Below, piece after piece: positions 12,659 to 18,940 of a stretch of 33,717 bases of DNA. The notes below the pieces were generated by a model, which was not told the origin of the DNA, searched no databases, and was given only the letters and a program-made list of their open reading frames with translations. Every line of letters begins with the position of its first letter. Position 1 is the stretch's first letter. Made by a program: the position numbers and the translations under genes. Source of the DNA: Arcicella sp. (lineage in GTDB: Bacteria; Bacteroidota; Bacteroidia; Cytophagales; Spirosomataceae); assembly GCA_014376355.1 (NCBI GenBank), contig JACMRQ010000233.1, forward strand, positions 1-33,717, given 5' to 3'.

Positions 12659-13492
12659 TCACTTCCTGAACGTTAGAATTGGAAGATTTGCCTCCTCAAC
12701 GAAATGTTCAGTTATACTTGTATTAAATATTTTACTCAGAAATGACTTTTCATGCACTGCCAATGCCAATACATCAGGTTTATGTGTTTTGATATAAGTT
12801 TCCAAGCCCTCAATAATATTTGCTCGATTCAAATTTGTAACCGTTACCTGCTCCTTATCGAACTCATTTTTCAATTGATGAATTGTACGTTCAACGTATT
12901 GTGCTGTATTCATTTCAAAATAATCATGAATATGAACAACGTGACAAACTGCACCAAAAGGTTTGGCGATTTTCATGATTCTATTGGTTGCAAAAATTTC
13001 ATCTTCTTGAAAATCAGCAGCATACAGAATTTTTTGTGGATACTCGATGATGGTATTTTGAGGGATAATCCAAACAGGACATTCTGCTATTTTCATTATA
13101 TTCTCAGCATTTGTTCCCATCCATTTATCCAAAATATTTGATGCTCCCTTCGTTCCCATTACAATAATATCCGCCTCAATTTTACGGGCAGTATCCAAAA
13201 TTTTATCCGCAATATAACCGTATTCAATTCTTTGCTTAATTCGGTCTTCGGATAACCCTGTTCTTTTAATAAATTTCACCGTGAATTCACGTAAATTATT
13301 CGCTGCAATGCTTTTGTTTAGATTAATAAAATTCTCAATTTCACTCGGTAATTGATATTCCGAGATAGTTGGAATAGAATATACGTTTAACAAAACTACG
13401 TTGGCATTCATACCTTTAGCAATCATTCCAGCGTATTGAGATGCGTGGAGTGCATTGTTACTAAAATCAGTCGGAAATAGAATCGTTTTCAT
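12659..13492 (-). CDS. Tandem-domain universal stress protein (UspA family), copy 1
   Basis: MKTILFPTDFSNNALHASQYAGMIAKGMNANVVLLNVYS... with GTKGASNILDKWMGT (G-2x-G-9x-G-[ST] ATP-binding motif). ATG at 13492 preferred over the 13537 extension. Confidence 0.92.
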   Translation of the reverse strand: MKTILFPTDFSNNALHASQYAGMIAKGMNANVVLLNVYSIPTISEYQLPSEIENFINLNKSIAANNLREFTVKFIKRTGLSEDRIKQRIEYGYIADKILDTARKIEADIIVMGTKGASNILDKWMGTNAENIMKIAECPVWIIPQNTIIEYPQKILYAADFQEDEIFATNRIMKIAKPFGAVCHVVHIHDYFEMNTAQYVERTIHQLKNEFDKEQVTVTNLNRANIIEGLETYIKTHKPDVLALAVHEKSFLSKIFNTSITEHFVEEANLPILTFRK

Positions 13493-13499
13493 TTTTTCG

Positions 13500-13520
13500 T
13501 TTGTTAGAAGACCTAACAAA
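13500..13520 (-). promoter_or_regulatory. Short hairpin in the 5' leader of usp copy 1
   Basis: TTTGTTAG-AAGAC-CTAACAAA, 8-bp perfect stem with 5-nt loop, within 10 nt of the start codon. Confidence 0.4.
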
Positions 13521-13569
13521 TTTCCATTTATTATCAAATTCTACCCATGATATAGTATAGTTTTAAAAA

Positions 13570-13581
13570 TGATTTTTATCA
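13570..13581 (-). promoter_or_regulatory. FNR/CRP-like box TGAT-TTTT-ATCA upstream of usp copy 1
   Basis: Perfect TGAT-N4-ATCA dyad; minus-strand context ACTGATAAAAATCATTTTTA, near-identical to the box upstream of usp copy 2. Confidence 0.6.
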
Positions 13582-13791
13582 GTAAATAAAAAGTATGTAA
13601 TCATTTATTTTTTGAAATTTTGATATTTTTTTTCGGAAAATTGAATAAAATAATTGAACCTCCAAAGATGTAAAGAAAAAAATAGTAAGTCATCGAGCGA
13701 AGATTACACGCATAGTCAGGAGTTGCGGGTTTTTGACAAAATTGCGTATTGCGGAATTATTTGGGTTAAAAAAAGACTGTTGACATAGAGG

Positions 13792-14850
13792 TTATCCTGG
13801 TAGATTTACCAATTTTTTCTCATTCAAAATTTTAATTTCACTACCGTTAATTTCAATTAAATTATTAGCTTTAAAGTCACTCAAAGTTCTGATTAATGAT
13901 TCCGTTGCCGTGCCAACTACTGAGGCTAAATCATCTCTGGAAATTTTCATGGTAAAATTTTCCTGAGATTCATTTTTGTACTTTTTTGATAACATTATCA
14001 ACGCATCTGCCGTTCTTTTTCGAATAGAATTATAAGCAATTTGCGTTAATTGCTTCTCTTTTTCTTGAATATCATTTGCTAACATTTTAATAAATTGGTT
14101 CGCAACTGATTGATTACGAGTGATTAACTCCAAAAAGTCATGTTTTGGAATGCCAATAATTTCACATTCTTCCAAAGCCTCTGATGAATCTTGATATTCG
14201 GTATTTTCAATAATTGAGATATGCCCAAAAAAATCGCTTGAATTGTATAATCCCGTGATGAATTCTTTTCCGTCCTGATTGGTTTGATAGGTTTTTACTT
14301 TACCTGATTTGAGAAAAAAGAATCGAATTGGCTCATCTCCCTCCGAATAAATGATTTGTTTCTTCTTGATAATTGATACTTTTCTATCAACTGACAATGA
14401 GTTTAAATCAACATGTTTTGTGGCTTTTTGATAAAAATCTTCGATGCTTTCTTGCGTATTTTTAAACGATTTTGAAAGATTTTCCACTTTTTTTAATCGA
14501 CTTTCAATTGCCTTCAATAATTCAATTTCTTGAAAAGGTTTAGTTAAATAATCGTCTGCCCCCATGTCCATCCCTTTCCGAAGGTCGGAACGGTCAGTTT
14601 TTGCAGTTAAAAAAATAAAAGGAATATTTTGCAAATTAGGACTTTGACTGAAAATATGTAAGACACCGTAGCCGTCCAATACGGGCATCATAATGTCACA
14701 AACCACCAAATCAGGCATAGTTTTATTGGCAATTTCAACGCCAATTTTTCCGTTTTCAGCCGTTAAAACTTTGTAATTAGCGAGTTCTAATATTTCAGCC
14801 GTTGTTTCTCTGATGTCGTCACTGTCTTCGATTAAGAGGATTATTTTCAT
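13792..14850 (-). CDS. Response regulator fused to a Crp/Fnr-type module (REC - cyclic-nucleotide-binding-like - HTH)
   Basis: N-terminal REC (MKIILLIEDSDDIRETTAEI...VVCDIMMPVLDGYG...FLTAKTD...GADDYLTKPF), then CNB-like fold (KKKQIIYSEGDEPIRFFFLKSGKVKTYQTNQDGKEFITGLYNSSDFFGHISIIENTEYQDSSEALEECEIIGIPKHDF), then Crp HTH (MKISRDDLASVVGTATESLIRTLSDFKANNLIEINGSEIKIL). Confidence 0.92.
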   Translation of the reverse strand: MKIILLIEDSDDIRETTAEILELANYKVLTAENGKIGVEIANKTMPDLVVCDIMMPVLDGYGVLHIFSQSPNLQNIPFIFLTAKTDRSDLRKGMDMGADDYLTKPFQEIELLKAIESRLKKVENLSKSFKNTQESIEDFYQKATKHVDLNSLSVDRKVSIIKKKQIIYSEGDEPIRFFFLKSGKVKTYQTNQDGKEFITGLYNSSDFFGHISIIENTEYQDSSEALEECEIIGIPKHDFLELITRNQSVANQFIKMLANDIQEKEKQLTQIAYNSIRKRTADALIMLSKKYKNESQENFTMKISRDDLASVVGTATESLIRTLSDFKANNLIEINGSEIKILNEKKLVNLPG

Positions 14851-14854
14851 AGTC

Positions 14855-16468
14855 TTAAAGATTTATCGTTACTGTAAAAGTTGTGCCAACATTTAATTCG
14901 CTTTCCACCGAAACTTGTCCATTTAATAATTCAGCGTAACGAGCCACGATATGCAAACCAAGCCCCGTTCCTTGAATGTTTGTTACATTTGTTCCTCTGA
15001 AGAAACGATCAAAGAGATGTTTTTGGTCTTCTTTTGATATACCGATTCCAGTATCCGAAACTTTTAAAATAAACGTATCTTCTTGATTATCAATTAGTAA
15101 AGTAACGATTGAATTGTCATTAGAAAATTTTAGTGCGTTTGAACAAAGATTAATAATAATTTTTCGTAGTAATGATTTATCAAGATTTACCGATGAAGAA
15201 CCTGTATGTTTATTTTCAACTTTTTGACCTTTTTTCATGATACTTGCCAAATCAGGCATACATTCTTTTAATAATTCTGGTATTTCAAAGCTAACCATCT
15301 TAGGTTCAACTCGCCCTTCTTCTAATTTTCCAACTGATAAAAATTCCTCTAAAATATCCGTTAAATTTCCGACTGCCGCTTTAATTCGTTGGGTATGGCG
15401 TTCACGTTTTGCCTGTTCTTCTGTTTTTTGATATTTTTCAATTAATGAAGCAGCCGATTGAATTGTTGTTAAGGGCGTACGAAATTCGTGAGAAGCCATC
15501 GATACAAAACGAGATTTCAATTCTCCCAATTCCTTTTCTTTGTCTAAAGCAATTTGCAACTCTTGTTTGGATTTTTCTAAACTTTTAAGCGTTTCAACCA
15601 AAGCATTTGTTCGATTTATTACTTCTTTTTCGAGATTTGCATTCAATTTTTCAATTTCTGATTTTTTATTGAGCAAATCATTTTCGGCATTTTTCTTAAA
15701 AGTTGTATCGTTGATAAAGGAAATATAGTAGGGTGTTTCTCCCGATTTGAAGTGACTTAAACTAATTTCTATTGGAAAAAGTGAACCATCTTTTCGTATT
15801 CCATGCAGGTCTAAACCTACGCCCATTGCCCTTGATTGTGGCTTATGATTATAGTTTTCATAGGTTTTTTTATGTCGTTCTTTCACAGTTTGAGGAATTA
15901 AAATATCAAGGTCACTACTTATCAATTCTCCATGTTCATACCCAAAAAGAACATCGGCAAAATGATTAGACAGTACAATTTTCCCTGCTTTGTTCACCAT
16001 AATTATTCCAATGGCAGCGTGCATAAAAAGCGCTTCAAAACGGATTGCTTCGTCTCGGATAAGTTGCTCATTTTGTTTGCGAGTGGAGATATCGGTAATA
16101 CGAATAAAATAGTGAGGAACTTTTTCGTGTTGGAACATGGAGATTTGTAAAATTCCCCAAAAATCAATTTTATAGATATTCTGAAAAAGAATTTCACCCG
16201 ACCAAATTCGCTCTTTTTGGAGGTGTTTTTTAATTTCATCGTGTTGTAATTCAGTAAGTGTTTCCTTTCTAAATCCGTGAGGATATTTAATCACAAACTC
16301 TTCTAAATCAGCTACTTCCAGCATTCTTAATCCCACCTGGTTGATGTGAACAAACTGACCAATAACAGTATTGTAAACGCCAATAAAAGAAGGGGTATCT
16401 TCCAAGGCAGTTTTTAAAAGTGCTTCGCTAAATGGGAAATTCATGAAAAATGACAAATTATGTTTCAT
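14855..16468 (-). CDS. PAS-domain sensor histidine kinase, second PAS FixL-like
   Basis: Two PAS-like regions, coiled coil, HisKA (FVSMASHEFRTPLTTIQSAASLIEKY), HATPase (LINLCSNALKFSNDN...VSDTGIGISKEDQKHLFDRFFRG...GTGLGLHIVARYAELL). Confidence 0.95.
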   Translation of the reverse strand: MKHNLSFFMNFPFSEALLKTALEDTPSFIGVYNTVIGQFVHINQVGLRMLEVADLEEFVIKYPHGFRKETLTELQHDEIKKHLQKERIWSGEILFQNIYKIDFWGILQISMFQHEKVPHYFIRITDISTRKQNEQLIRDEAIRFEALFMHAAIGIIMVNKAGKIVLSNHFADVLFGYEHGELISSDLDILIPQTVKERHKKTYENYNHKPQSRAMGVGLDLHGIRKDGSLFPIEISLSHFKSGETPYYISFINDTTFKKNAENDLLNKKSEIEKLNANLEKEVINRTNALVETLKSLEKSKQELQIALDKEKELGELKSRFVSMASHEFRTPLTTIQSAASLIEKYQKTEEQAKRERHTQRIKAAVGNLTDILEEFLSVGKLEEGRVEPKMVSFEIPELLKECMPDLASIMKKGQKVENKHTGSSSVNLDKSLLRKIIINLCSNALKFSNDNSIVTLLIDNQEDTFILKVSDTGIGISKEDQKHLFDRFFRGTNVTNIQGTGLGLHIVARYAELLNGQVSVESELNVGTTFTVTINL

Positions 16469-16704: not shown

Positions 16705-17268
16705 TCAACCAATCGACTCAATTACACTTCTTCGTTTAACACGTAATTGTTTAAAGTGAGATGGTGAAAAACCAGTAATTTTTTTGAATTGATTTGATAA
16801 GTGGGCGACGCTACTATAATTCATTTTATAAGCAATTTCTGAAATTGTTAATTCGTTATAAGTAATCAATTCTTTTACTCTTTCTGCTTTATGAAGTAGG
16901 ATAAAATGTTGAATATTAGTGCCTTGCATTTCTGAAAATAAATTTGAAAGGTAGGTGTAATCGTAATCTAATTTACGGCTCAAATAGTCCGAAAAGTTTA
17001 CTTTAATCATATCGTCCGCAAAATGTACCATTTCAACAATTGTATTTTTTACTTTTTCTATCAAAATTGTTCTTTTGTCGTTCATCAATTCAAGTCCCAT
17101 TTTGAGTAAAGTTTCTTTCAATTCCTCCCGTTGTTTTTTCGAAATATTTTCCATTATTTCAGCTTCGCCCAAATTTACCATAATGTAGTGTAAGTTGAGT
17201 TTATTCAACGCATCTTTCACGACTAATCTACAAGTATTACTGACCATGTTTTTAATGTAAAGTTTCAT
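16705..17268 (-). CDS. AraC-family transcriptional regulator with small N-terminal ferredoxin-fold/HMA-like domain
   Basis: C-terminal AraC HTH (DYTYLSNLFSEMQGTNIQHFILLHKAERVKELITYNELTISEIAYKMNYSSVAHLSNQFKKITGFSPSHFKQLR); N-terminus resembles a betaalphabeta-betaalphabeta HMA-like module. Confidence 0.85.
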   Translation of the reverse strand: MKLYIKNMVSNTCRLVVKDALNKLNLHYIMVNLGEAEIMENISKKQREELKETLLKMGLELMNDKRTILIEKVKNTIVEMVHFADDMIKVNFSDYLSRKLDYDYTYLSNLFSEMQGTNIQHFILLHKAERVKELITYNELTISEIAYKMNYSSVAHLSNQFKKITGFSPSHFKQLRVKRRSVIESIG

Positions 17269-17772: not shown

Positions 17773-18034
17773 AGAAAAAAGGGTATTTTTTATGATTAAT
17801 AAATGTTTAATTATTCTGTAAAATCGTTGTTGTTGGCGAGGCTTGTTACATTTTTGCACCTTTTTATTGGCTCAAGGGAACTCAAAGCCGATAAAAGTAT
17901 TTTTTAATCCTAAGAAAATAATAATATCCACCAGCGATAATTATAAAATTATATTTCTACAAAATTGAAAGATTTCTGAGATAATTACTAAGAGAATAGT
18001 CAGGGAAGAGAGGGCAATTTATCAGTTCAAAGGC

Positions 18035-18046
18035 TGATGAAAATCA
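18035..18046 (+). promoter_or_regulatory. FNR/CRP-like box TGAT-GAAA-ATCA upstream of usp copy 2
   Basis: Perfect TGAT-N4-ATCA dyad, context GCTGATGAAAATCATGTTTA. A -7-like GAACTTTG (one mismatch to TAnnTTTG) is at 18070-18077 and the ATG at 18104, a geometry compatible with activation near -41.5. Confidence 0.6.
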
Positions 18047-18103
18047 TGTTTATTTTAAGAAAAATCTAAGAACTTTGTTTTACATATTTTAAATCTTAAT
18101 GTT

Positions 18104-18940
18104 ATGAAAACCATCCTTGTTCCAACTGATTTTAGTAAAAACTCCCTTCATGCTTCTGAATATGCAGGAATGTTGGCAAACCGAATGAATGCAAATGTGG
18201 TGTTTTTAAATACTTACTCGGTGCCAATGGCTTCTGATTATCCATATTCTTACAACATTGACAATTTTTTGATTGTGGGGAAAGAAACTGCTGAAGAGAA
18301 CTTGCAAATTTTTACAAACGATTTTATAGAAAGAACAAAGTTTGATGCTAAAAGAATCGCCCAAATTGTTGAATACGGTTTCGTGGCAGATAAAGTTATT
18401 GATACTGCAAATACTATCAAAGCTGATTTTATTGTGATGGGAACAAAAGGAGCATCCAATATTTTGGATAAATGGCTCGGTACAACGTCCCAAAAAGTAA
18501 CGAAAATGGCTGAATGCCCCGTTTGGATTATTCCTAATAAAGCTGACATTCACTTTCCAAGTAAAGTTTTATATGCGGCTGATTTAAAAGAAGATGAGAT
18601 TGTGGCAACGCATAAAGTTTTGGAAATGATTAAACCATTGGATGCTTTGTGTAAAGTAGTCCATATTCACGATTACTTTGAAGATAATACTAACCGTGAA
18701 GTTCAAAAAAAGGTAAATAATTTGCAAAATGCTTTTGATAATGATGGTGATATTTCTTTTAAAAGTGTGAATGATGGTGACATAATTGATGGGTTAGAAA
18801 ATTATATTAAATCATATAAACCCGATATTTTAGCTTTGAAAATACAACATAAATCATTTTGGAGTAAGATTTTTGATGCCAGTATTTCAAAGCATTTTTT
18901 GCAACACGCCAATTTACCGATGCTGACTTTTCGGAATTAG
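18104..18940 (+). CDS. Tandem-domain universal stress protein (UspA family), copy 2
   Basis: MKTILVPTDFSKNSLHASEYAGMLANRMNANVVFLNTYS...GTKGASNILDKWLGT...AECPVWIIPN; clearly paralogous to the 12659-13492 product. Confidence 0.93.
   Translation: MKTILVPTDFSKNSLHASEYAGMLANRMNANVVFLNTYSVPMASDYPYSYNIDNFLIVGKETAEENLQIFTNDFIERTKFDAKRIAQIVEYGFVADKVIDTANTIKADFIVMGTKGASNILDKWLGTTSQKVTKMAECPVWIIPNKADIHFPSKVLYAADLKEDEIVATHKVLEMIKPLDALCKVVHIHDYFEDNTNREVQKKVNNLQNAFDNDGDISFKSVNDGDIIDGLENYIKSYKPDILALKIQHKSFWSKIFDASISKHFLQHANLPMLTFRN

Follow-up and report, generated by a model that had tools for sequence, protein, structure and literature searches.

The window analysed here, a 33,717-nucleotide stretch of an Arcicella assembly (completeness 89%, contamination 6.9%), contains two minus-strand genes spaced 4 bp apart. 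The first gene of the pair (14855..16468, ATG start) encodes a PAS-PAS histidine kinase of 537 amino acids, identified by Pfam and by a survey of related loci, while the second (13792..14850, ATG start) encodes a 352-residue regulator in which a receiver (REC), a cyclic-nucleotide-binding-like domain (CNB), and a Crp-type helix-turn-helix (HTH) follow one another, as supported by Pfam and by full-length homologues. A first-pass annotation had described a receiver, CNB, and Crp HTH in one chain with a PAS kinase 4 bp upstream, such that phosphorelay output and Crp/Fnr regulator would be one polypeptide; the open reading frames and three Pfam domains above their gathering scores, the CNB and HTH among them, bear this out. 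Two universal stress protein (Usp) genes flank the pair, one downstream of the regulator gene (12659..13537, minus strand) and one at 18104..18940 (plus strand), both identified by Pfam and both likely targets by virtue of the predicted sites described below. A short AraC-type regulator of 187 amino acids without a sensor domain is encoded at 16705-17268, upstream of the kinase, and is conserved in a sister locus (L031, 91%). Rfam and tRNA scans of the window returned no match.

Within the regulator, the REC domain spans residues 4-116 (14503..14841; Response_reg, E 5.7e-27), followed by a low-confidence linker at residues 129-147 (14410..14466; AlphaFold pLDDT <50), a cNMP-binding-like beta-roll at residues 162-246 (14113..14367; cNMP_binding, 1.9e-20), and the Crp-type HTH at residues 279-349 (13804..14016; HTH_Crp_2, 1.4e-13), all on the minus strand; no listed NCBIfam model reaches its cut-off. 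The receiver motifs cited in the earlier annotation are real and conserved: across 131 aligned rows, D9, D52 (the phospho-acceptor position), and K104 are each present in at least 97% and T82 in 97%. The recognition helix reads T-E317-S-L-I-R321, with E317 and R321 invariant in all 131 rows, and we take these two, by position, to be the Glu and Arg that contact the TGA core in CRP and FNR. In the AlphaFold model (mean pLDDT 84), residues 148-350 fold as a CRP, with structural matches to MtbCRP, GlxR, and CAP; the placement of the domains is uncertain given a pTM of 0.53.

A frameshift or chimera that fused two genes was considered as a source of this architecture and is excluded, since the reading frame is unbroken and proteins with all three domains in full are found across Bacteroidota at 34-93% identity. 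The full-length architecture is encoded in 91/101 genomes of the taxonomic family (E<=1e-40) and in 44/297 sampled Bacteroidota genomes (E<=1e-50), the nearest locus being that of an Arcicella MAG (93% identity); the family is one of water and soil Bacteroidota. A related kinase lies immediately upstream in 111 of the 124 distinct loci, and the two genes often overlap by 4 or 23 bp, overlaps that look like a sign of translational coupling. The pairing supports an evolutionarily fixed kinase partner. A paralogue in this same genome (contig C239:11725-12762), a REC-CNB-HTH protein 55% identical to the window regulator, has no kinase beside it. This paralogue groups with a Runella copy, and a small ORF nearby is preceded by a TTGACGAAAATCAA box. 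In one other genome (G025:C404:14901-15907) the receiver and CNB-HTH parts appear as two adjacent matches, from either a frameshift or a natural split, and in four genomes (G001, G037, G053, and G078) a stand-alone Crp/Fnr protein of ~237 amino acids, 40% identical to the CNB-HTH half, is encoded 2-3 kb from the fusion and is possibly the source or a sibling of the fused part. The pair also occurs on NZ_CP007144.1 and five other plasmids of Hymenobacter, Runella, and Spirosoma, once with ccoS and ccoN, and so can move as a unit; these six full-length plasmid matches are all from Bacteroidota and are annotated merely as 'response regulator' or 'transcriptional regulator'.

In relatives, the gene neighbourhood of the pair ties it to the cbb3-oxidase cluster. 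Among 79 long loci, recurrent neighbours are heavy-metal P-type ATPases (35 loci), universal stress proteins (20), CcoNO (15), and bacterial globins (12), with CcoG, FixH, CcoP, and a DsbD-like protein in 7 loci each; representative CcoP, CcoG, FixH, CcoNO, CcoI-like P-type ATPase, and globin neighbours were confirmed by Pfam or NCBIfam. On a Hymenobacter swuensis plasmid the order is kinase, regulator, two truncated hemoglobins, P-type ATPase, ccoS, ccoN, and a FixP-like gene. When positions were compared by hand in the phylum sample, no more than 15 kb separated the regulator from ccoN in 15 of the 38 genomes holding both (0.285 expected, P ~2e-22), and the presence of regulator and ccoN was found to co-vary weakly (38/43 vs 173/253, P = 0.006). 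A conserved protein of ~141 amino acids without a known Pfam or NCBIfam family is encoded in 14 loci (e.g. L045:8507-8953); its gene mostly adjoins the pair and is preceded by a box in 6 of 8 cases. CcoG is absent from the present genome and from the sister MAG (L031) and present in four other Arcicella genomes, and no close CcoN was found in the present genome; by gene content, the Arcicella-like lineage of the window probably lost cbb3 and kept the regulator. Both CcoG-less genomes are also smaller, at 4.6-4.7 Mb.

The kinase core comprises HisKA at residues 318-385, including H327, and HATPase_c at residues 430-536 (14861..15517, minus strand; Pfam), and H327 is present in 118/118 aligned kinases. 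Together with the D-D-T-K set of the receiver, a HisKA histidine accompanied by an HATPase domain gives the pair, as judged by sequence, the hallmarks of a two-component system. Upstream of the core lies a FixL/DosP-like PAS at residues 143-256 (15701..16042, minus strand), supported by Pfam, alignment, and Foldseek, and preceded by a PAS-like fold at residues ~15-127 (16088..16426, minus strand), which Pfam missed and which is seen in an AlphaFold model of the first 262 residues. The top Foldseek matches of this sensor half are the tandem PAS structures of FixL (best 8js5, TM 0.68 over 250 columns), with DosP and other heme PAS also scoring high, so that by its modelled fold the sensor would be a tandem PAS with a second PAS of the heme type. 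By sequence, the window PAS is likewise closest to FixL (31% identity) and then to DosP; one further PAS match, a weak one, occurs in this genome. Of the residues that define FixL, the axial ligand is in place, with His199 aligning to the heme-ligand His200 of FixL and retained in 98/103 distinct family kinases, while the distal Arg220 is replaced by Leu219, Arg being found in 56/103. A conserved H199 on its own would be weak evidence for heme.

Clearer cases exist among relatives. The PAS domains of eight kinases (L120, L122, L124, L128, L129, L133, L134, and L135) are 42-51% identical to that of Bradyrhizobium japonicum FixL and contain His200, Ile215, and Arg220 alike, and one FixL-type relative scores E 2e-33 against FixL; these sequences suggest near-canonical FixL heme-PAS domains. 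The eight loci fall at two places on the regulator tree, which means either repeated joining of FixL-type sensors to the REC-CNB-HTH output or their loss between the two places. For the window kinase itself, oxygen sensing is uncertain, since it belongs to a lineage apparently without cbb3 and its PAS lacks Arg220. One could therefore suppose a phospho-gated CRP-like system whose PAS responds to something other than oxygen, such as a redox flavin, a small molecule, or the energy state, in which the likeness to FixL is that of the PAS fold in general and the histidine is structural. The Leu at the distal position, the modest identity to FixL, and the apparent lack of cbb3 in this genome all favour such a sensor, as does the majority of family PAS domains, which are of the RxMGxG type rather than the PHIIGIGR type of FixL. 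Yet the structural matches lead with FixL and other heme PAS, the linkage to cbb3, globin, and Usp genes holds across lineages, and unmistakable FixL-type kinases pair with the same regulator at both places on the tree, which leaves a signal other than oxygen a serious but unlikely proposition.

Candidate operators for the regulator emerged from an unbiased search for 5-bp inverted repeats in 471 intergenic stretches, in which CTGAT-N4-ATCAG ranks first (12 seen vs 0.5 expected) and CTGAC-N4-GTCAG second (9 vs 0.3). The relaxed form of this predicted Crp/Fnr box, (C/A)TGAY-N4-RTCA(G/T), occurs in the loci at 209 intergenic and 86 intragenic positions, a 17-fold difference in density, and other gap lengths yield 4-22 intergenic counts each against the 209 at a gap of 4. 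The box lies upstream of CcoI in 24/26 cases, CcoNO in 7/9, Usp in 16/24, and the kinase in 28/63, compared with 94/397 for other genes, fractions that are descriptive only because the loci, many of them from Hymenobacter, are not phylogenetically independent. It corresponds to the FNR/FixK anaerobox, TTGAT-N4-ATCAA (PMC7888657), with C or A in place of T as the first base. Predicted sites of the anaerobox type thus appear to precede cbb3 genes in relatives of the window, as they do for FixK. Two boxes 22-23 bp apart recur before ccoNO (L042, L044, L052, and L064) and before other genes (L066; L061), a spacing of about two helical turns that suggests tandem binding of dimers.

The window holds three occurrences of the relaxed pattern against 2.17 expected over its whole length, which is about chance, and one of these occurrences is intragenic. 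What is notable is the position of the two extragenic ones, which stand before the Usp genes on either side of the pair: ATGATTTTTATCAG (13569..13582) is centred 83.5 bp before the likely Usp start codon at 13492, and CTGATGAAAATCAT (18034..18047) is centred 63.5 bp ahead of position 18104, the ATG of the other Usp gene. The sister locus has both Usp boxes too, and no perfect box precedes the kinase gene of the window. A scan of the whole assembly gave 47 perfect sites vs 28 for the control, nearly all of them intragenic; beyond the two in the window, the intergenic sites are limited to those 206 bp ahead of a RoxA-like cytochrome c gene and 268 bp ahead of a Clp ATPase gene. Genome-wide counts were also tried as a test of dependence on the fusion and proved uninformative, the box being enriched over control 4.64-fold in 43 genomes with the fusion and 6.15-fold in 30 without it, all from one class. 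Since enrichment extends to Bacteroidota that lack the fusion, free Crp/Fnr proteins may share the box elsewhere, and it could even be that the predicted boxes belong to such stand-alone proteins altogether, with the fusion regulating other genes, an idea to which the separate Crp/Fnr protein near the fusion in some relatives lends some weight. We regard this as improbable: the only Crp-type HTH proteins above cut-off in the present genome are the window regulator and its paralogue, yet the box is retained at both Usp promoters, here and in the sister MAG.

Neither of the classical triggers of this fold seems available to the regulator. The position of the cAMP-contacting Glu (210) is Tyr or His in 117/131 rows, and Arg does not predominate at any of positions 219-221, position 219 being Tyr or His, 220 variable, and 221 Asp or Glu in 128/131. 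The regulator has only two cysteines, C51 in the receiver and C229, in agreement with the earlier remark that an FNR-type N-terminal cysteine cluster is missing. Given the replaced Glu and Arg and the two cysteines, the protein is, on its residues, not a cAMP receptor of the canonical kind, nor is it an FNR of the Fe-S type. Of the earlier suggestion that phosphorylation might gate the dimer with or without a ligand, the ligand part is weakened insofar as cAMP is unlikely to bind a pocket without its contacting residues. That the CNB might nonetheless bind cAMP, cGMP, or another small ligand and integrate it with phosphorylation is quite improbable on the same substitutions, which speak against canonical cAMP binding, even with an intact beta-roll and several conserved pocket positions (G209, D/E221, S/T222, and A223).

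We hypothesize, with a probability of roughly two in three, that the pair forms a two-component system of Bacteroidota: a FixL-like kinase with tandem PAS domains would phosphorylate the receiver that is fused to a FixK/FNR-like protein and thereby gate the dimer of that protein. In response to low oxygen, or to some related signal of respiration or redox state, the kinase would autophosphorylate at H327, from which the phosphate would pass to D52 of the regulator. The phosphorylated receiver would then alter the CRP-like dimer through the flexible linker, such that phosphorylation would take over the role of allosteric trigger that a cyclic nucleotide or an Fe-S cluster has elsewhere. We infer that the dimer would bind the predicted boxes and activate respiratory and stress genes: in relatives, these would include the cbb3 oxidase (CcoNO) with its copper pump CcoI, Usp, and the kinase-regulator operon, and in this genome, apparently without cbb3, the two flanking Usp genes.

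The comparison with rhizobia, in which fixK is induced by FixJ and its product in turn binds anaeroboxes upstream of fixNOQP (PMC4999443, PMC7888657), stands in part. Shared with that cascade, as proposed here from sequence, are a FixL-like PAS kinase, a phosphorelay, a Crp/Fnr-type output devoid of Fe-S cysteines, TGA-N6-TCA sites resembling the anaerobox, and cbb3 genes as neighbours and likely targets. What does not carry over is FixJ: rhizobial FixJ combines its receiver with a LuxR/NarL-type HTH and FixK is a separate, stand-alone CNB and Crp HTH protein without a receiver, making two transcriptional steps, whereas here the HTH is Crp-type and the receiver is fused at the N-terminus. With no LuxR-type HTH, the merger of FixJ and FixK in the earlier reading is better described as a receiver placed directly on a FixK/FNR-like protein, which would remove the intermediate transcriptional step between FixJ and FixK. 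The hFixL-FxkR-FixK system of Rhizobium leguminosarum (PMC7888657) similarly feeds a low-oxygen sensor kinase into a Crp/Fnr regulator of fixNOQP, but there FxkR and FixK are separate proteins and the kinase is a hybrid. With FNR and FnrN the regulator shares the Crp-type fold, the Glu and Arg of the recognition helix, and the half-site spacing, and it differs in having a receiver where they have the N-terminal cluster of four cysteines. CRPs (CAP, MtbCRP, and GlxR) are the best structural match of residues 148-350, though they have the cAMP-contacting residues that are absent here and lack the added receiver. DosS/DosT-DosR of Mycobacterium is a further two-component system for low oxygen and has universal stress proteins in its regulon; unlike the present pair, it uses GAF heme sensors and a NarL-type regulator.

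A full-text literature search returned no paper on a REC-Crp/Fnr fusion, with an earlier listing in the Galperin response-regulator surveys being possible, and the literature searched held no experiment or paper on this regulator family. Control of the high-affinity cbb3 oxidase in non-gut Bacteroidota likewise appears to be undescribed in that literature. On a broader scale, we give even odds to the pair being a Bacteroidota counterpart of the rhizobial cascade, widespread in that phylum, with the functions of FixJ and FixK in one phospho-triggered protein that serves cbb3, or stress genes where cbb3 has been lost. If true, this would identify, for hundreds of genomes, a cbb3 regulator together with its partner kinase and DNA box. 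A further gain would be a clean example of a CRP fold triggered by phosphorylation in place of a small ligand, an idea for whose test a single kinase, a single regulator, and a single 14-bp site would suffice.
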